NCBI RefSeq assembly: GCF_937616625.2
Contig: NC_065573.1
Span: 21,095,001 to 21,159,000 of the forward strand
DNA: 64,000 bases
Direction of reading: 5' to 3'
Source: Mercurialis annua
Lineage: Eukaryota; Streptophyta; Magnoliopsida; Malpighiales; Euphorbiaceae
In this document: positions 15,441-57,374 of the stretch, in pieces
How positions within the stretch are numbered: the first letter of the stretch is position 1
How the letters are laid out: each line of letters begins with the position of its first letter
Position numbers and translations under genes: made by a program
The notes under the pieces: model-generated
Databases searched by the model: none
Told to the model about the DNA's origin: nothing
Seen by the model: only the letters and a program-made list of their open reading frames with translations

Positions 15441-15487
15441 CACATGTGAAAGGTTTGTTGTCCTTCCTCTGCGGAAGGTTTGCTGTC

Positions 15488-15596
15488 TGTTAGATTCCAT
15501 CTTAAAACCAATTGGTATCAAGTGGAGGTGCCCAACTAATATATAAACACAAGTCCATTCACACACACAACCAATGTGGGATTTCCCACTTCAACA
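15488..15596 (-). repeat. TRIM LTR A (3' LTR of the compound element)
   Basis: This 109-bp LTR starts TGTTAGATTCC and ends TTCAACA in plus orientation. It has TATATAA-like text at its centre and appears identical to LTR C. The polypurine tract is directly adjacent on the right (plus CTCCCCCTC). Confidence 0.92.
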
Positions 15597-15708
15597 CTCC
15601 CCCTCACGGGTAGCGTGTACGGGCCGAGCAACAAAGTCCCCCCTCACGCACATCTCACGTGGGCCAGGCCAAACTCAAATTGTGTGAATGGACAAGGCTC
15701 TGATACCA

Positions 15709-15817
15709 TGTTAGATTCCATCTTAAAACCAATTGGTTTTAAGTGGAGGTGTCCAACCAATATATAAACACATGTCCACTCACACACACAACCAATGTGG
15801 GATTTCCCACTTTAACA
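15709..15817 (-). repeat. TRIM LTR B (internal LTR)
   Basis: This LTR has the same 109-bp length and ends as A and C but about seven substitutions. On the minus strand it is followed immediately by the intact initiator-Met primer-binding site (plus 15696-15708). It is an older, internal LTR carried within the compound element. Confidence 0.92.
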
Positions 15818-15921
15818 CTCCCCCTCACGCTTAGCGTGTACGGGCCGAGCAACAAAGTCCCCCCTCACGTACATCTCACGTGGGCCGGGCCAAACTTAAA
15901 TTGTGTGAATGGACAAGGCTC

Positions 15922-16614
15922 TTTTTTTTTAATAAAGAATGAATAATAATATGATTATCAAACAAATGACAGCAGCTGACTCTTTCATTCTTTCTACTAC
16001 ACTTTTTAATAATTCTTAATACTCTCAAGACCGCATATATACTTATATATGGGGTAGCTTAAAAAAAATTAAAAATAAAAAAGCCATTCAGGCAAAACCA
16101 AGCAAACAACATAACACTTTTAAGTTGCAGAGAATCGGCACATACAAATTTAAGCTTGAGGCTTATCCCATTTGAGGGGCTTCACCACCTCCCATGTGAA
16201 ATCGGGGTCATCCCTTCCGAAGTGACCATAGGCAGCAGTCTTCAAGAACCTGCCGTTACCGCCTCTCTTCAAATCCAGGTTGATCGACATCATACCGGGC
16301 CTGAAATCAAAGTTCTCCTTCACAATCTTGAGAATCTCTCTGTCTGGGATCTTTCCGGTGCCGTAAGTATCGACAAACACGGACAATGGCTTTGGCACAC
16401 CAATGGCATACGACACCTGAACAATGCAACGAGGAGCAAGCCCGTTGGCGACGATGCTCTTGGCTGCCTGCCTAACAATGTAGGCTCCACTCCTGTCGAC
16501 CTTGGTGGGATCCTTTCCGGAGAAGGCACCACCTCCGTGGGCTCCCCAGCCTCCATAAGTATCGATAATGATCTTACGGCCAGTGAGACCAGCATCACCA
16601 TGTGGGCCACCAAT
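15922..16614 (-). pseudogene. S-adenosylmethionine synthetase 3' cDNA fragment captured in the TRIM
   Basis: The minus strand from 16614 to 16150 reads in one frame as the last 154 codons of SAM synthetase (methionine adenosyltransferase). It starts at [12 protein letters not shown], continues through [20 protein letters not shown] and ends [10 protein letters not shown] plus stop. The full enzyme is about 390 residues and makes SAM from methionine and ATP; the N-terminal 60% is absent, so this copy cannot be an active enzyme. A 3' UTR of about 220 bp (15931-16149) ends in nine A residues (plus 15922-15930) joined directly to TRIM sequence. No introns are present, and the copy is in sense orientation to the TRIM. 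Two substitutions from familiar plant sequences are visible (proline in GLAPRC; lysine in GVPKPL). The frame is still open, so the capture appears recent. Confidence 0.93.
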
Positions 16615-16618
16615 ACCA

Positions 16619-16727
16619 TGTTAGATTCCATCTTAAAACCAATTGGTATCAAGTGGAGGTGCCCAACTAATATATAAACACAAGTCCATTCACACACACA
16701 ACCAATGTGGGATTTCCCACTTCAACA
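16619..16727 (-). repeat. TRIM LTR C (5' LTR of the compound element)
   Basis: This 109-bp LTR looks identical to LTR A. On the minus strand it is followed by only TGGTAT of the primer-binding site before the SAM synthetase sequence begins, with AT shared by both partners at the junction. Confidence 0.92.
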
Positions 16728-17089
16728 CTGTCTATTTTTAATGAAGGAGTTATCAAGTGGTGGTTAAACCAGATGATGTGAGTTTGCGGGTGATGGGTGA
16801 TGGATGAAGTTTGATCGAAGATTGATTGAAAACTGCACTTAATTAGCGAAACAGATAATAATTTATTTTTATTTTCGTAAGTAAGATCTGCGAATCAGAC
16901 AGCATGTTGTCTGTTCCATGTCAGGTCATCGGGTTTCGTTTTCGAATTATTCCGAATTTCTTACAAATGTAACTGTTTCATATTCGATTTAATGAGATTT
17001 GATGAATTCAAAAAAAAAAAAAACTACACCACATGTTATATATTAAATGGATGGTTCATAATCCTACATGGTGTATTTTATTCACCTAA

Positions 17090-32210: not shown

Positions 32211-32234
32211 TATGTTTTCTAATTAAGGGAAATT

Positions 32235-33830
32235 ATGAGTGACTCTTTGGAGAAAGAAAACAGGGAACCTTCAACGGAAGACAGGTCAACCAAGAAAGCA
32301 AAATTTAGAGAAGAGGACAGTTTGAAATGCTATCCACAGGCTATGTCATTCAGGGATAAATTGGTTCAGAATGATAGGGAAAGGGAAGAGTATCTGGCCG
32401 GGAATTATGACAACTTTAAGGTCAGCGATGAGGAAGTTACTATTCTCAGAAATGGTTGTATGCCATCCATTGAATTCTCAAAACGCATTCAAGAGGAACT
32501 CGCTAAGCAGTGGAAGACTACCGTCGTTGTGAAACTCCTTGGGAGACCTATTGGATATCGGAATCTCTGTAATCGCCTCGATGCCATGTGGAATTTTACA
32601 CAGGGGTTCGATGTTATTGACCTTGAAAATGGCTACTTTTTAGTCAAACTCAAAAGTGGAGGGGATGTTGAAGCAGTTCTAACAGGCGGGCCGTGGGTTA
32701 TTCTAGGTCATTATTTGTCTGTACAGGCATGGAGTACGAAGTTCGATTGCCTTACGGATGACATTCAATCTGTTCAAGCATGGATTAGACTCCCGGGGAT
32801 GCCAATTCACTACTATAATAAAAAGGTCCTCAGGTATATAGGGGAAATGGTGGGCAAGGTTATTAAAATCGATTATTGTACTGAGACCGCCGAGAGGGGT
32901 AAATTCGCTCGTATTGCCGTGGAGCTTGACCTCAAGAAACCCCTAGTGGCTCATTTTTGCCTTGATGGCAAAGTCCAATTTGTGGAATATGAATGCTTGC
33001 CTAGAATCTGTTTTCATTGCGGTAAGTTTGGTCATACCAAGGATTATTGTCCTGAGGTCATTACTCGACAACATCCTGACCGGAACGAGGGTGGAGGAAG
33101 GAATGAGGTGGAGCGGGGCTTGCCGGCGGTAGAAGTTACCAAAGAAGGAAACAATAAAGCTATCCCTAGTTTTGGGCCTTGGATGTTGGTGAACAAGAAA
33201 GGTAGGTCAAATGCTAATTTTGGCAAAAAGAAGAATACTGATGCGGGGAGTGCAGGCAGGGAAGGAAATCAGCAAGGATCTCGGTTTCACGTTTTAGAAG
33301 ATGTTGCTCAGGAAGATCCCCTTGATTTAGGCAAAGATCCAAGTTTGGAATTTGAAGTTGACCAAAACACTAAGACCCACGCTGATACTCAAAAGATGCT
33401 TGATCGCATGAAACATGCAGGGAAAGACAAATCTGCCCTTAATGAAAACGCTGGTTTGAATGGTTCTCAATGGCAAGCTTCTAAGCCCAGGAGCCCAGCC
33501 TTACAGAATAAGGCCCGGTTTATTGTTAACAAGAATACCACGTCACTAGATCCTCTGCAACACTCTGTGGTTACTGTTCAATATAATTCTAATATTACTA
33601 ATGCTGGAAACTCCTTGTCAGATACTTTGTCTGATAAGGGAGGGTCTGCTAATCCTACTCCGAATACTTTTGAACCTCGCCCTCCTGATATTGTGCAGAA
33701 TGGTGCTCTCCAAGATTTTGTCGAAGGGAAAGATGTCGATATGAGTTTAGTTGAAGAAGATATGTGTCCGGATAATGATGACGATATTGAAGCCGAAGAT
33801 ATGGAAGGGCTGTCTCAAAACCCCATCTAA
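32235..33830 (+). CDS. LINE ORF1: DUF4283-type RNA-binding protein with CCHC zinc knuckle
   Basis: This 531-residue protein has the layout of plant LINE ORF1 gag-like proteins, which coat the element RNA. Residues about 85-245 match the DUF4283 type of domain (with motifs such as LLGRPIGYRNLCNRL and GGPWVILGHYLSVQAW). A zinc knuckle follows with C259, C262, H267 and C272 (spacing C-x2-C-x4-H-x4-C). The C-terminal 250 residues are polar and low-complexity, ending in an acidic tail. The ATG at 32235 lies 10 bp after the 5' TSD; there is no in-frame upstream Met inside the element, so the original start could have been further 5'. ORF2 starts 32 bp after the stop in another frame. Confidence 0.93.
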   Translation: MSDSLEKENREPSTEDRSTKKAKFREEDSLKCYPQAMSFRDKLVQNDREREEYLAGNYDNFKVSDEEVTILRNGCMPSIEFSKRIQEELAKQWKTTVVVKLLGRPIGYRNLCNRLDAMWNFTQGFDVIDLENGYFLVKLKSGGDVEAVLTGGPWVILGHYLSVQAWSTKFDCLTDDIQSVQAWIRLPGMPIHYYNKKVLRYIGEMVGKVIKIDYCTETAERGKFARIAVELDLKKPLVAHFCLDGKVQFVEYECLPRICFHCGKFGHTKDYCPEVITRQHPDRNEGGGRNEVERGLPAVEVTKEGNNKAIPSFGPWMLVNKKGRSNANFGKKKNTDAGSAGREGNQQGSRFHVLEDVAQEDPLDLGKDPSLEFEVDQNTKTHADTQKMLDRMKHAGKDKSALNENAGLNGSQWQASKPRSPALQNKARFIVNKNTTSLDPLQHSVVTVQYNSNITNAGNSLSDTLSDKGGSANPTPNTFEPRPPDIVQNGALQDFVEGKDVDMSLVEEDMCPDNDDDIEAEDMEGLSQNPI

Positions 33831-33862
33831 GGGGTCGGTCTCGTTTCTCTTTATTGTTATCT

Positions 33863-36800
33863 ATGTTAGAAAACAAAAAAATAATGGTGTGGAATGTGCA
33901 AGGTGCTGGATCAAAGAAGTTTAACAGGACTTTTAAGAATTTTTGTCGTAAACATAATGTTGATATAGTTGGCATTCTCGAGCCAAGGATTAGTGGGAGT
34001 AATGCTGACCAGTTTATCAAGAACAGCGGTTTTAATTTCTCTCATAGAATTGAAGCAGTTGGTTTTTCGGGTGGGATTTGGATCCTTTGGAAACCTGGTT
34101 TATCTATCTCGATCTTAGAGAATAATAAGTATTATGTCCATATGAGAGTGGAAGTTGGTGTGAATACGTTTCTCTTAACTATAGTGTATGCGAGTCCAAA
34201 CGCCACTCTTCGTCAACACCTTTGGTATGACTTATCCATTCTGGCTAGTTTGGTCACGGAGCCGTGGATTCTGGGGGGTGATTTTAACGCTGCTTTATAT
34301 GACGAGGAGAGAAAAGGAGGGGCGAGTGGTAGAATGGGTGGTTGTCGCTTGTTCAGAAATTGGTTTGAGCAGTGGAATTTTATTGATCTTGGATATCATG
34401 GGTCCCCTTTCACTTGGAGACGGGGTAGTTTGCTTAAGAGGTTGGACAGATTCATTTGTAATGAAGCTTGGGCTCTTAGATTCCCTCATCACTTTGTTCT
34501 TCATTTACCTAGAATTCACTCTGATCATAATCCTATCTTCCTCCAGTTCAACAAGCTTTGCGGCAGAAATTTCGGTCCCAAGCCTTTTAAGTTCTTAGCT
34601 GCTTGGACGGGTAATAGTGGTTTTAAAAACATTGTCGAAAAGAGTTGGGCTACTTCTTCTTCGTTTGTTAATTCTGTTCAAAAGTTTACCGAAGATGTCA
34701 AAATCTGGAATACTCGTGAATTTGGGAACATTTTCAAGAGAAAAGATGAGCTCTTGTCGAGACTAAATGGTATCCAAAAAGCGAGAGAGAATTATAATTC
34801 CCAAAAGTTGAATGATCTTGAGCAGGAGATCACTCATGAGCTGGATAAAGTCCTCTATCAGGAGGAACTTTTCTGGTTTCAGAAATCCAGAAGTGAGTGG
34901 ATTGCGGACGGAGATCGCAATACCGCTTTTTTCCATAAGAAGGTCGCTGAGAGACGCCGTTTCAATAAAATTACTGTTCTAAAGGATTCTGAAGGGCGTT
35001 TTGTTGAAGATCAGAATGCTTTGAAGCAGATGGTTTTGAATTATTACTCGGATCTTTTTACTAGTTCGAATGGTCATTTTAAACCACTTTCTCTCTATGG
35101 TAGCTTTCCGAGTATTGAAAGGGGATTGGAGGAAGAGATGTCTCTGCCTGTTACGGATGATGAAATAAAATTGGCACTTTGGAATATGAAACCGCTCAAG
35201 GCTCCTGGGGTTGATGGGCTTCACGCTCTTTTTTATCAAAGTCAGTGGGAAATTGTGGGGAAGAGTCTTTGCAGCTTTGTCAAGAATATTTTCAATGGCA
35301 ATCCTTTGCCGGAGGAGATCAACCAAACTCTTATCACTTTGATCCCGAAGTGTAATAACCCGGAGTCTCTCAAGTCTTTTCGTCCAATTAGTTTATGTAA
35401 TGTATCGTACAAAATCATTACAAAACTTATAGCGAATCGGCTCAAGAAGATTATGCCTCTCATTATTAATCCGGCTCAAACCAGTTTTGTCGAGGGTCGA
35501 CACATAACTGACAACATCATCTTGGCACAAGAGGCGATGCACTCGATGCGTCAGAAGAAAGGGCGTAAAGGTATTATGGCTATCAAAATAGACTTGGAGA
35601 AAGCTTATGATAAAATCTCTTGGGATTTTCTTAGAGATACGCTAGTTGATGCCGGTATTCCGAACTATTTGTCTAAAGTGATTATGCAATGCGTGACCAC
35701 TCCCTCTATGCGTATTTTATGGAATGGCTGCTCGTTGGATCCGTTTAAGCCTACTTGTGGGATTCGTCAAGGAGACCCGTTATCCCCATACCTCTTTGTT
35801 CTTTGTATTGAGCGGCTTGCGCATTTAATTAACCAAGAGTGTAGAAGCAATCATTGGAAGCCTCTCCGATTGGGTCGTGGTAGTCCCCCTCTTCCCTATT
35901 TATTTTTCGCAGATGACCTTTTGCTGTTTTGTGAAGCTTCGACTGATCAGGCTGTAGTAGTTCATCGTGTTCTGTCCACATTTTGTGAGTCCTCGGGTCA
36001 AAGAGTTAATAAAGAGAAAACTAAGGTGCTGTTCTCTAGAAATATCTCGATGGCTCAAGGAAATATGATTGCGGCTAAGTTAGTTTTTTCAATTACTTCG
36101 GACTTGGGTAATTATTTGGGCATCCCTCTCCTTCATGGGAGAATGCTCAAGAAGCACTCTTCTGGATTCATGAGCCGTATCAGAACGAGATTATCGAATT
36201 GGAAAGCTAAATCATTATCGATGGCCGGGCGAGCGACTTTGGCAAAATCTGTAGTGGAAGCTATTCCTATCTATACCATGCAAACTATGGAGCTGTCGAA
36301 AGGCATTTGTGATGAAATCGAAGCTCGTTGTAGACAATTTTTGTGGGGATCCTCTGAAGAGGAAAGGAAGCTCAGCCTGGTTAAATGGTCTACTATTTGC
36401 CAGCCAAAGTCTCATGGTGGTCTTGGTTTTAAGAATATGAATTTGATGAATCACTCTTTGTTAATGAAACTGGGGTGGAGCATTTTTTGTAATGAGGAGA
36501 AGTTGTGGGTTACCATTATTCGGGCAAAATATAAAATGGATAATGACAACAGGCTGACTCCAAAGTTTAAGGCTAGGGGATCTCACCTTTGGAAAGCCAT
36601 TCATCATATCTGGGATAAAGTCTGTGCAGGCGTTAGATGGGCTCTTAGTGATGGTGCTACGATTCGTTTTTGGCTTGATCCGTGGCTTGGTGAAGAGACG
36701 ATTTTACAACAGGTTGCGTTAACCCCAATTCCCATTGCTGAGCTTGAGTTACCTGTTAACGCCTATGTTGATAATAACTATAACTGGGCATGGGGAAAAT

Positions 36801-37981
36801 TTGCTAGTTATGTTCCTCATTCTTGGTTGCTAAAGATCTCTAACTATAGTCCACCTCGTCCATCGTATGGTAAAGATTTTATATTTTGGGGTCTTTCTAC
36901 TTCGGGGAATTTCACTGCTAGATCTGCTTATAACTACCTTGCTGCTCCTGATTGGAATGAAGCTGAAACATGTTGGAAGGCCGTTTGGAGTTGGGATGGG
37001 CCTGAGAAAATTCGTCAAATGATGTGGTTAGCTGTTCACGGCAAGCTGTTGACTAATGTCGAAAGATTCAGAAGACATTTAACAGATGTAACTACGTGCA
37101 GCCGATGCCATGCTGTGGAGGAGGATATTGATCATGTTCTAAGAGGTTGTTCTTTTGCCATGCAAGTTTGGCTGAGACTCATTGACAAATCCAAGCTCAA
37201 CAGATTTTTCACGTTGAACTTTAAGGATTGGCTGCTGGTTAACATAACAGGGAAAGAAAAATTTGGGTATAATGTTGATTGGGCTATAATCTTCGGAGTT
37301 ACCATTTGGCGTATTTGGCAATGGAGGAATACCTCAGTCATTGGTAACAAACACACAACTATAAACCAGGTAGTAATTGACATCTGCCGAAGAGTTGATT
37401 ATATTAATATCTCAAAGACGAGACTTCACTGCTCGGGAGGTTCTAGCCGTACCCAAAGAGATATTCAGGTAGGATGGGTCTGTCCTCCGGTCATGTGGGC
37501 TAAGATAAACACAGACGGGGCCTATAATTCAACTACAGGTATTGCGAAAGCCGGAGGTATCATCAGGAACGACATGGGTCGATGGATAGCTAGTTTTTCA
37601 GCCACTATTGGTATGGGTTCGGTTTTGGAGGCTGAATACCGAGGAGTGTTGCATGGCCTGCAGTTGGGTTGGAATTTGGGTTTGTCCAAGGTTATTCTTG
37701 AAGTTGACAGCAAGCTTGTGGTGGAAAAGATATCGAGCAGTTCAGATGCGGCTCAATTCTCCAATATTGTTACTGCCATTCGTGAGTTGCTCAAGCGTGA
37801 TTGGGAAGTCAAGGTGTGCCATACCTACAGAGAAGCGAATTTTGCGGCGGACCACCTCGCGTCGCTTAGTGATGATTACATTATTGGTTGCTATTTCCAT
37901 GAGAACCCTCCTGCTACCTTATTACCCTGGATCATGCATGATCTTCATGGGACTTCTTATACTAGGGTTATTTCTTCTTAG
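33863..37981 (+). CDS. LINE ORF2: endonuclease, reverse transcriptase and RNase H polyprotein
   Basis: Starting at the first true ATG (33863) this reads 1372 codons without a break. An APE-type endonuclease occupies residues 1-230, with the catalytic set N11, E40, D140, N142, D221 and H222 all present (motifs WNVQGAGS, LEPRIS, GGDFNA, SDHNP). The reverse transcriptase follows (about 440-760), with KAPGVDGLHALFY, LIPKCNNPESLKSFRPISLC, the IDLEKAYDKISW motif and the active-site FADD at 682-685. A zf-RVT zinc-binding region (CSRCHAVEEDIDHVLRGC, from C1079) is next. The C terminus is an RNase H domain with D1218, E1256 and D1282 and a DHLAS end. RNase H is present in only some plant L1 clades. 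All key residues are retained, so it could be active. Confidence 0.95.
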   Translation: MLENKKIMVWNVQGAGSKKFNRTFKNFCRKHNVDIVGILEPRISGSNADQFIKNSGFNFSHRIEAVGFSGGIWILWKPGLSISILENNKYYVHMRVEVGVNTFLLTIVYASPNATLRQHLWYDLSILASLVTEPWILGGDFNAALYDEERKGGASGRMGGCRLFRNWFEQWNFIDLGYHGSPFTWRRGSLLKRLDRFICNEAWALRFPHHFVLHLPRIHSDHNPIFLQFNKLCGRNFGPKPFKFLAAWTGNSGFKNIVEKSWATSSSFVNSVQKFTEDVKIWNTREFGNIFKRKDELLSRLNGIQKARENYNSQKLNDLEQEITHELDKVLYQEELFWFQKSRSEWIADGDRNTAFFHKKVAERRRFNKITVLKDSEGRFVEDQNALKQMVLNYYSDLFTSSNGHFKPLSLYGSFPSIERGLEEEMSLPVTDDEIKLALWNMKPLKAPGVDGLHALFYQSQWEIVGKSLCSFVKNIFNGNPLPEEINQTLITLIPKCNNPESLKSFRPISLCNVSYKIITKLIANRLKKIMPLIINPAQTSFVEGRHITDNIILAQEAMHSMRQKKGRKGIMAIKIDLEKAYDKISWDFLRDTLVDAGIPNYLSKVIMQCVTTPSMRILWNGCSLDPFKPTCGIRQGDPLSPYLFVLCIERLAHLINQECRSNHWKPLRLGRGSPPLPYLFFADDLLLFCEASTDQAVVVHRVLSTFCESSGQRVNKEKTKVLFSRNISMAQGNMIAAKLVFSITSDLGNYLGIPLLHGRMLKKHSSGFMSRIRTRLSNWKAKSLSMAGRATLAKSVVEAIPIYTMQTMELSKGICDEIEARCRQFLWGSSEEERKLSLVKWSTICQPKSHGGLGFKNMNLMNHSLLMKLGWSIFCNEEKLWVTIIRAKYKMDNDNRLTPKFKARGSHLWKAIHHIWDKVCAGVRWALSDGATIRFWLDPWLGEETILQQVALTPIPIAELELPVNAYVDNNYNWAWGKFASYVPHSWLLKISNYSPPRPSYGKDFIFWGLSTSGNFTARSAYNYLAAPDWNEAETCWKAVWSWDGPEKIRQMMWLAVHGKLLTNVERFRRHLTDVTTCSRCHAVEEDIDHVLRGCSFAMQVWLRLIDKSKLNRFFTLNFKDWLLVNITGKEKFGYNVDWAIIFGVTIWRIWQWRNTSVIGNKHTTINQVVIDICRRVDYINISKTRLHCSGGSSRTQRDIQVGWVCPPVMWAKINTDGAYNSTTGIAKAGGIIRNDMGRWIASFSATIGMGSVLEAEYRGVLHGLQLGWNLGLSKVILEVDSKLVVEKISSSSDAAQFSNIVTAIRELLKRDWEVKVCHTYREANFAADHLASLSDDYIIGCYFHENPPATLLPWIMHDLHGTSYTRVISS

Positions 37982-55545: not shown

Positions 55546-57374
55546 GTACAATTCCCATTTTATTATTTTCTTTAAAACACATTCATGTTTTGCCGTAAAC
55601 TAATTGAGAATTTGTTTATTTTCATAAAGAGTTTGGCGGAGATGTATCGAGCAGAGACGTAGAGGAGTGGTTTTTCTTCATTCCGAGGCAAGAAAGTGAA
55701 GCTCGTGGAGGAAGGCCGAGGAGGATTACAAGTAGCGGATATTGGAAAGCCACCGGCTCTCCCGGCCATGTTTACGCCAACAATCGCATCATCGGCATGA
55801 AAAGGACTATGGTTTTCTATAGAGGACGAGCTCCTACTGGCCGCAAAACGGATTGGAAAATGAATGAATATAAAGCCAATCGTGGAGATTCATCTTCTTC
55901 CTCCATTTCTGCAACACCAATGGTATATTTCATGTCATTTTATTTAGGCCGAATCACTCAAAAATAAATATATTTCATTTATGTCAACTACTCAATATTT
56001 TTAATCTTTAAATTTCGGTTTTTTATTTATGACCAAATTTTTTAATTTCATTAATTTTAATCAGCTACAATTGAAATATAATTATCAAAATTAATTAAAA
56101 ATAATGTTTTTAAAACATTGAATCATAAATGAAATAAGTCCAAATAATAATGTATTTTTAGTTATTAAAACAGCAAAAAAAGAAATATAAGGAATTTGTA
56201 GGTATATTAATAGGCAAAATAGATAAACTTATTACTAAAATATATCCTAAATAACAGTTTAGTCTAATAATTGTATCATTTACATCAAATAATATTTTAA
56301 CAACAAATAAAATAGTTGAATAATTTAATCGATAAAAATAAAATAATTTTAAGTCCTTTAAATTACATTTTTAAAAGAAAATCATGTCGTTACCAAGTTC
56401 TTTTGTGAACTTTTATGTTATTACAAGAGAAATTATAAATATTTTTCAAATTTGGACATTTATCCCCCAAAAAACCCTTAAATATCGAATTACATCTTAT
56501 TTTTATCATTAAACCATTCATCTTTTTTATTTGCTATTTAGATATAATTGACTCAATAAAATGTTAGAAAAAATTGTCTTGTTTTTTGTTAATGCTATAT
56601 TTATCAATTTTGCCATAATTATAAAAAAACTAATTCATTTTGCCATAATTATAAAAATACTAATCAATTTGTTTTGACATATACATTGCACACAAGTATA
56701 TGTGAGATTCATAGATGCAATTTTAACTATTTCATCAAATATATTTCTAATATTTAGTTTAGACTTTTTAGTCCGTTAAATTTGTGAATTGAGACATATA
56801 TATATCTAACCTTAATTTAAACCTATTTTTAGACATATAATTTTCTAAATTCAAATAAGCATTCTTAAACTGAAATTAAAGGTTGATTGTGTAAAATAAT
56901 CATTTATGAAATTAAAAATTTAGAAAAAAAATCTCAAAAATATGTATAATTTAGAATTTGGATATATTTGAATCAATTTTACAAATTGATTTTTTTGTAT
57001 ATTTTGATTAGATGACTAAAATTATATATATAAAAATTTATGTTGTCTATAATACATGTGTAAACACATTTTTGTAGGCAATGCATGAGTTCACATTGTG
57101 CCGAGTATATAAGAAATCCAAAAACATACGAGCATTTGATAGAAGGCCATTAGCATCGGAGATTGGTGACATCAGATCAGCTCAACCCCAACCCGAAGTT
57201 TCCATAAACGCCGATGATCATCAAAATCTCCCAACGACGACAGAGACTGCAAATTCTCACGAGAGTTCATCATCGGAAGATCGTCATGTTACTCAAATCG
57301 GAGAAAGCAGTAACATGCTAATGTCTACTGATAGTGAACCTTTGTGGGATTGGGATCAACTGGAATGGTATTAG
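52255..57374 (+). CDS. NAC-domain transcription factor, NAC090-like, three exons
   Basis: The coding exons are 52255-52420, 55630-55922 and 57078-57374. All borders are GT/AG and the frame is kept, giving 251 codons. The NAC DNA-binding domain spans residues about 4-165. It opens [20 protein letters not shown] (subdomain A), has [11 protein letters not shown] (B), [11 protein letters not shown] and [11 protein letters not shown] (residues 92-101, C), the [16 protein letters not shown] block (D) and FTLCRVYKK (E). The C-terminal region is Ser/Asp-rich and ends DWDQLEWY, similar to the NAC090 tail that activates transcription. Exon positions at the two conserved NAC intron sites support the model. 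Intron 1 (3209 bp) is enlarged by a 2433-bp LTR element and a hAT MITE remnant. Arabidopsis NAC090 acts in salicylate/age-related regulation, but no role can be read from this sequence. Confidence 0.95.
52470..52965. mobile_element. Decayed hAT-type MITE in NAC intron 1
   Basis: The right end ATATGCACACCCCTCA and a left GATGTGCACCAAACCGAAC segment are mirrored, with AACCGAA motifs typical of plant hAT MITEs. The edges and TSD are too decayed to fix, so coordinates are approximate. Confidence 0.45.
52971..53075. repeat. TA/CATA microsatellite, target of the LTR element
   Basis: TATATA and CATACATATATG repeats cover about 100 bp. The LTR element inserted here with TSD TATAT. The repeat resumes after it (55509-55540). 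Confidence 0.95.
53076..53694 (+). repeat. 5' LTR of the copia-type element
   Basis: 619 bp, TG...CA, with a TATATATAC box near 53231 and the PBS two bases after its end. Confidence 0.95.
54890..55508 (+). repeat. 3' LTR of the copia-type element
   Basis: 619 bp, nearly identical to the 5' LTR, following the polypurine tract; its end joins the (TA)n repeat. Confidence 0.95.

Follow-up and report, generated by a model that had tools for sequence, protein, structure and literature searches.

A three-LTR TRIM insertion with a polyadenylated SAM synthetase cargo joined inside the PBS

The insertion at positions 15488–16727 of the window (the whole 64,000-nucleotide stretch of Mercurialis annua DNA analysed here) is a TRIM of 1,240 bp whose sense strand is the minus strand. 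It has three 109-bp LTRs and carries the polyadenylated 3′ part of a SAM synthetase mRNA, both ends of which lie within one 13-nt PBS. We judge the chances to be about even that this L3I2 TRIM was made and integrated in a single aberrant reverse-transcription cycle that also captured the mRNA. Three-LTR TRIMs, template-switched three-LTR insertions and exon-only gene capture by TRIMs have each been published already, and the insertion is a young, instructive example of these known processes with one new anatomical detail, namely the position of the cargo in the PBS. With both copying accidents present in one young insertion whose junctions can be read, template switching becomes testable at the nucleotide level.

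Read along the minus strand from 16727 to 15488, the order of parts is LTR C, TGGTAT, SAM synthetase 3′ cDNA, poly(A), INT2, LTR B, INT1 and LTR A. LTR C (16619–16727) is the element’s 5′ LTR and LTR A (15488–15596) its 3′ LTR. These two are identical at 109 of 109 positions, whereas the middle LTR B (15709–15817) differs from either at 7 of 109 and is of another sequence type. INT1 (15597–15708, 112 bp) is a complete TRIM internal region, with the PBS TGGTATCAGAGCC at 15696–15708, intact beside LTR B, and its PPT side at 15597–15607; INT2 (15818–15921) lacks the 5′ half of the PBS and starts in the sense direction with GAGCC. Of the 105 bases that align between INT1 and INT2, 5 differ. LTRs B and A are each preceded by the purine-rich sequence GTGAGGGGGAG, which we take to be the PPT, and TGGTATCAGAGCC is presumably a PBS of the iMet type.

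A single perfect 5-bp TSD, CTGTC, encloses the whole three-LTR unit (left copy 15483–15487, right copy 16728–16732, by direct reading) and no smaller part of it. TRIMs are recognised here by short direct LTRs with TG...CA ends, a PBS and a PPT, a 5-bp TSD and no coding capacity of their own, and the element has LTRs of 109 bp, an internal region of 112 bp, both priming sites and the TSD. The initial annotation had described three LTRs around two shared internal regions, identical outer LTRs, a middle LTR with about seven differences and a TSD around the entire unit only, and had deduced that the three-LTR unit integrated in one event. The alignments and the flanking sequence bear out each of these points, the single TSD and the identical outer LTRs both indicating one integration.

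The cargo runs in sense with the element and encodes the C-terminal domain of S-AdoMet synthetase (PF02773, E = 2.2e-61). It had been annotated as a SAM synthetase 3′ cDNA with its poly(A) attached, for which the parent gene was to be sought; that gene was found on contig C3 (the window being on contig C4), and its stretch C3:1180025–1180709 is the same as window positions 15930–16614 at 683 of 685 bases. All of the cargo lies on the minus strand, with the 3′ coding part and stop codon at 16150–16614 and the 3′ UTR at 15930–16149. The UTR is without differences to the parent, and the coding part has two, a silent change at 16453 and a change from Glu in the parent to Lys at 16392. Among the best 120 database matches of the fragment, 119 have a residue at the latter position, which is Glu in 94 and Lys in 13. 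Database identities reach 96% for the fragment and 95% for the full parent, the named top matches coming from several flowering-plant families. The 5′ end of the cargo falls in the ATT codon of the parent’s VIGG motif, at about codon 240 of 393.

At its 3′ end the parent reads TTATTATGTTCTC, continuing with TGTTCTC after the first A, whereas the element reads TTATTA, eight more As and GAGCC. The resulting run of nine As (15922–15930, minus strand) holds seven or eight that are untemplated, as the A at 15930 is also present in the parent and the last, at 15922, may belong to the PBS (CAGAGCC). Because these terminal As have no counterpart in the parent gene, the cargo derives from a polyadenylated mRNA; a polyadenylated host sequence thus lies between LTRs while its parent gene lies elsewhere, on C3. 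The initial annotation had further stressed that the cDNA is intron-less. This is true of the cargo, but we rejected it as proof of mRNA origin, since the parent CDS is itself one uninterrupted frame of 393 codons and the stretch that was captured contains no intron in the parent either.

A frame of 103 codons begins at the first ATG of LTR C (sense base 97). It is not the SAM synthetase frame, and it was rejected as a candidate fusion protein for being out of frame with the latter. Judged from the sequence, the cargo is unlikely to be translated and a function for it is likewise unlikely. With its first PBS broken and its cargo lacking an in-frame start codon from LTR C, the insertion is probably a dead end.

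Both cargo junctions fall inside the 13-nt PBS of the first unit, in the arrangement TGGTAT / cargo / (A)GAGCC, with the loss of 1–2 nt of TRIM sequence. What is left before the cargo, TGGTAT (16613–16618, minus strand), gives the PBS beside LTR C only 6 contiguous bases out of its 13. At this 5′ junction the parent reads TTCGTC ATTGGTGG and the element TGGT ATTGGTGG, so that the final AT is common to the gene and the PBS, a microhomology of 2 nt. Two independent breakpoints would both fall in the 13-nt PBS with a chance of about 0.3% if the 221-nt LTR-plus-internal unit is the target, or 1.3% for the 112-nt internal region, both being post hoc figures.

Two genome searches were made for comparable junctions. 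The poly(A)/TRIM junction AAAAAAGAGCCTTGTCCATTCACA, allowing at most one mismatch, occurs in the 451-Mb assembly at this element only, in a pattern that covers captures ending at the same point. The other search used the LTR end followed by TGGTAT, and its pattern covers intact LTR ends and a non-C base at PBS position 7. It returned 13 sites, comprising 11 point variants of the PBS ahead of ordinary TRIM sequence, this element, and L115 (around C3:58711966); no other mRNA stands directly behind TGGTAT at any of the 13. At L115 (positions 1363–1560 of the locus) a 145-bp non-TRIM stretch is duplicated together with an LTR-end hairpin beside TGGTAT, and this stretch gave no Rfam match at the gathering threshold and no sign of mRNA. 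The single poly(A) junction and the lack of other mRNA after TGGTAT count against PBS capture being a frequent event. A second PBS-internal junction was seen in L079 (C1:4425400–4427000), where, at 544–550 of the locus, an LTR with the first 7 nt of the PBS (TGGTATC) runs directly into a second LTR at the latter's base 40, inside a TSD-flanked array. The outer LTRs of this array differ at three diagnostic sites despite its TSD, CCCGT.

The LTR types were then placed among relatives in the genome. A 46-nt core of LTR A is exact in LTRs A and C only, and 50 more sites carry it with one or two mismatches (52 in total). The 47-nt core of LTR B has no exact match elsewhere, and 11 other sites carry it with a single mismatch; 8 of these 11 form four pairs 221 bp apart, which is the spacing of ordinary two-LTR elements. 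Such ordinary relatives were found near the LTR A type (L038, L039, L096) and near the LTR B type (L030, L034). Among 83 full-length internal regions fetched, the nearest to INT1 is that of L039, with 2 differences. No donor identical to LTR A/INT1 or to LTR B/INT2 was found among the loci and genome matches compared.

Pairing of LTR and internal types was assessed in 139 adjacent LTR–INT pairs from the fetched sample, the window excluded. LTRs with GAG at bases 39/45/60 stand beside internal regions with TA at bases 58/60 in 69 of 69 pairs, and ATA LTRs beside GG internal regions in 14 of 25. LTRs A and C are of the ATA type and INT1 is GG, LTR B is of the GAG type, and INT2 combines G at 58 with A at 60; this combination stands beside AAA LTRs in 11 pairs, beside ATA in 2 and beside GAG in none of 69. 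The two LTR types thus point to two templates, and INT2 is no clean partner of LTR B. This mismatch led us to lower slightly, from a little better than even to about even, our confidence in a single cycle, to trim that in the capture route through the PBS described below, and to raise a little that in a tandem that already existed.

LTR B also contains a perfect 22-nt palindrome, CTTAAAACCAATTGGTTTTAAG, at window 15722–15743, where LTRs A and C are symmetrical in the central 10 nt only. Such a palindrome could aid RNA dimer formation.

The family sample comprises 70 loci obtained by two biased routes, one by best match to the unit and the other by match to the LTR A core; the parent gene (L009) is not counted. 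With the window this makes 71 loci, from which 13 with fewer than two full-length LTRs were dropped, leaving 58 for array counts. Truncated or interrupted LTRs are uncounted, so some two-LTR loci are really larger arrays (L017, L018). Two full-length LTRs on the same strand occur at 41 loci, where a perfect 5-bp TSD was found in 33 and identical LTRs in 15. Another 13 loci have at least three full-length LTRs (in mixed orientation at L010 and L016), and in 11 of the 13 one perfect TSD surrounds the whole array. Identical outer LTRs with a different inner LTR were found in 3 of 13 (L012, L013, L089). In 4 of 13 the outer LTRs resemble each other more than they resemble any inner LTR.

Arrays are therefore frequent among the fetched relatives, and a tandem structure as such is nothing special there; for this family, the counts contradict the earlier opinion that preservation of an internal LTR is unusual. 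In 8 of the 11 other TSD-flanked arrays (e.g., L014, L020, L022, L079) the outer LTRs are not identical, which may result from age, gene conversion or irregular priming. Head-to-head arrays with one TSD, whose joins hold LTR-end palindromes, were seen at L088, L081 and L016. L108, like these three, has oppositely oriented TRIM units within one perfect TSD. L014 (C1:8028500–8030400) is a five-LTR array with TSD ATAAT in which LTR variants alternate, the first being the same as the third and the second nearly the same as the fifth.

In LTR retrotransposons, minus-strand synthesis ends at the PBS, which is also the site of the plus-strand transfer. A single cycle could have produced the element as follows. 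RNAs of two different TRIM copies would have been together in one particle. Minus-strand synthesis would start on the copy with the A type of LTR, pass through U3, INT1 and the PBS, and, rather than stop there, run into the second template, placing LTR B in the middle. Near the end of this second template, in the PBS, the strand would switch to a SAM synthetase mRNA, entering at the poly(A) end, and copy about 690 nt towards the 5′ end of this mRNA. Plus-strand strong-stop DNA with a partial tRNA-derived copy of the PBS (TGGTAT) would then join the cDNA through the 2-nt AT, LTR C being a copy of LTR A, and the integrase of a helper element would insert the product once, giving the 5-bp TSD.

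Such a cycle is suggested by the one TSD, the identical outer and different inner LTRs, the untemplated As, the junctions in the PBS and the finding of one copy. The jump from PBS to poly(A) and the closure by strong-stop DNA would account at once for where the two junctions lie, for the cDNA orientation and for the identity of the outer LTRs. The existence of both LTR types elsewhere as two-LTR elements also counts in its favour, as do the switch-like junctions of L079 and of the head-to-head arrays L088, L081 and L016. The lack of an identical donor for LTR A/INT1 or LTR B/INT2 counts against it. The eight TSD-flanked arrays with non-identical outer LTRs also argue against simple copying, unless these arrays are older or were altered later. 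A single cycle further predicts LTR B to be a U3/R-U5 chimera; all seven LTR B differences lie within sense bases 5–80 and none in 81–109 (chance about 0.11), so a chimera would look the same as an unmixed LTR.

More specifically, the minus strand may, on reaching the PBS, have jumped end-to-end onto the poly(A) of a packaged mRNA, with strong-stop DNA closing the product by its tRNA-derived PBS end, and this may be a general route of capture. We put this forward only tentatively. If true, captured cDNA would separate the 5′ LTR from the internal region, its tail abutting a remnant of the PBS, and one and the same fault in strand transfer would underlie both tandem arrays and gene capture. The PBS position of both junctions predicts where other captured cDNAs would be located in LTR elements.

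The strongest competitor to the single cycle, which we hold to be possible though rather unlikely, is that the genome already contained an array of three LTRs, LTR B being the middle one, and that this array was transcribed and copied, so that the last cycle added only the mRNA, captured at the first PBS. The frequency of arrays with one TSD (11 of the 13 others), the three with identical outer and different inner LTRs, and L010, in which A-like LTRs adjoin a B-like unit, fit this account, and concatenated Cassandra transcripts are mentioned in the portions of PMC7215508 considered. An array with the same middle LTR was not found, however, and the LTR B core is exact here only. In the whole-unit search the best 40 of 470 candidates were scored, so a plain tandem precursor could be missed.

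The initial annotation had instead proposed that the mRNA was captured first and the cargo-bearing tandem, formed elsewhere, was then copied here as a unit. The single TSD and identical outer LTRs would also be expected after re-copying, and the divergence of the cargo from its parent (2 of 685) against that of the outer LTRs (0 of 109) is compatible with a slightly older cargo, although these numbers are far too small to tell. Against it, no other composite was found among the best 40 of 470 candidates, and no copy of the poly(A) junction. Nor did any relative carrying the cargo appear among those 40, and the junction is single in 451 Mb; instead of several genomic copies with separate TSDs, one copy was found, in one assembly. 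Repeat counts from the whole-unit search are lower bounds, and absence from this assembly is not absence from the species. In addition, the first PBS, on the LTR C side, is down to 6 nt, and normal priming from the element’s own RNA should fail. Its transcript is thus probably not primed normally, which favours an insertion that is itself the first product over one copied from an older composite. If a helper TRIM RNA supplied the strong-stop DNA, a composite RNA could still be copied, and the broken PBS is therefore no strict bar to earlier movement. On balance we find movement of a ready-made composite improbable.

More doubtful still is an origin at the DNA level, in which a plain TRIM (LTR A-INT1-LTR) at CTGTC received a cargo-bearing LTR B TRIM, or a one-LTR circle, by recombination into its 5′ LTR. 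This would give the same order of three LTRs, the same TSD and identical outer LTRs, with the crossover placed in the final 29 bp of the LTR, where no variants lie, and LTR-LTR recombination is the other array route given in the portions of PMC7215508 considered and in the discussion of PMC11899658. Yet it requires two rare events and a separate cargo-bearing TRIM, of which none was found among the best 40 of 470 whole-unit candidates or by the junction search, and by itself it leaves the PBS position of both cargo junctions unexplained. Recombination between sister chromatids at the two LTRs of a single TRIM was rejected as sole cause, LTR B being no copy of A or C. An assembly artefact joining unrelated pieces is very improbable: repeats of about 220 bp can mislead assemblers, but the TSD is perfect, the junctions consist of poly(A) and PBS, and the 1.2-kb element is shorter than a typical long read.

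The three-LTR form itself is well documented. In the sections consulted of Gao et al. 2016 (PMC4717578), TA-TRIMs occur in 35 of 43 genomes and L3I2 is the commonest maize form (63 of 93); the present element is alike in having three LTRs, two internal regions and one 5-bp TSD, but one of these two regions contains an insert derived from an mRNA and is without a complete PBS. The same paper describes gene-capturing TRIMs of 1,172–1,449 bp with exon-only host sequence and 5-bp TSDs, a range in which our 1,240-bp element falls. These have both LTRs and, in all but two cases, at least two copies, whereas a single copy was found here. Neither a third LTR nor a retained poly(A) nor a PBS junction is mentioned for them in the main text of PMC4717578, as far as consulted; all three are present here.

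An internal LTR, a flanking TSD and alike outer LTRs are attributed by Sabot and Schulman 2007 (PMC1950507, in part) to template switching between two packaged RNAs. Our element shares the TSD and outer LTRs that are more alike than the inner one (0 of 109 against 7 of 109). The complexes in the portions of that paper considered are much larger (Angela of Copia type, Squiq, Opie); they have two complete cores and carry no host mRNA, whereas INT2 here is without the first half of the PBS. Tandem LTR-retrotransposon insertions reported by Morales-Diaz et al. 2025 (PMC11899658) likewise share an internal LTR within a single TSD-flanked insertion, but they are not TRIMs with cargo, and host mRNA is not mentioned in the sections considered. 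In LTR-mediated retroposition (Tan et al. 2016, as cited in PMC8232201), host mRNA is copied by LTR machinery and comes to be flanked by LTRs, sometimes with poly(A); the likeness is host mRNA between LTRs, and TRIMs and PBS junctions are not mentioned in the portion of the review considered. Cassandra arrays are treated in PMC7215508, with reviews in PMC13317346 and PMC8232201, each seen in part.

No three-LTR TRIM with mRNA cargo, and likewise no PBS-located capture, was met in the literature searched, which comprised titles, abstract openings and selected sections of mostly non-subscription papers without their supplements.

Elsewhere in the window, a LINE-type element lies on the plus strand at 32223–37978, with two long open frames, one encoding DUF4283 and a weak zinc knuckle and the other an endonuclease, RVT_1, zf-RVT and an RNase H-like domain. 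The plus strand also carries, at 55608–55964, a NAM-domain fragment (PF02365) that probably represents a NAC gene exon.
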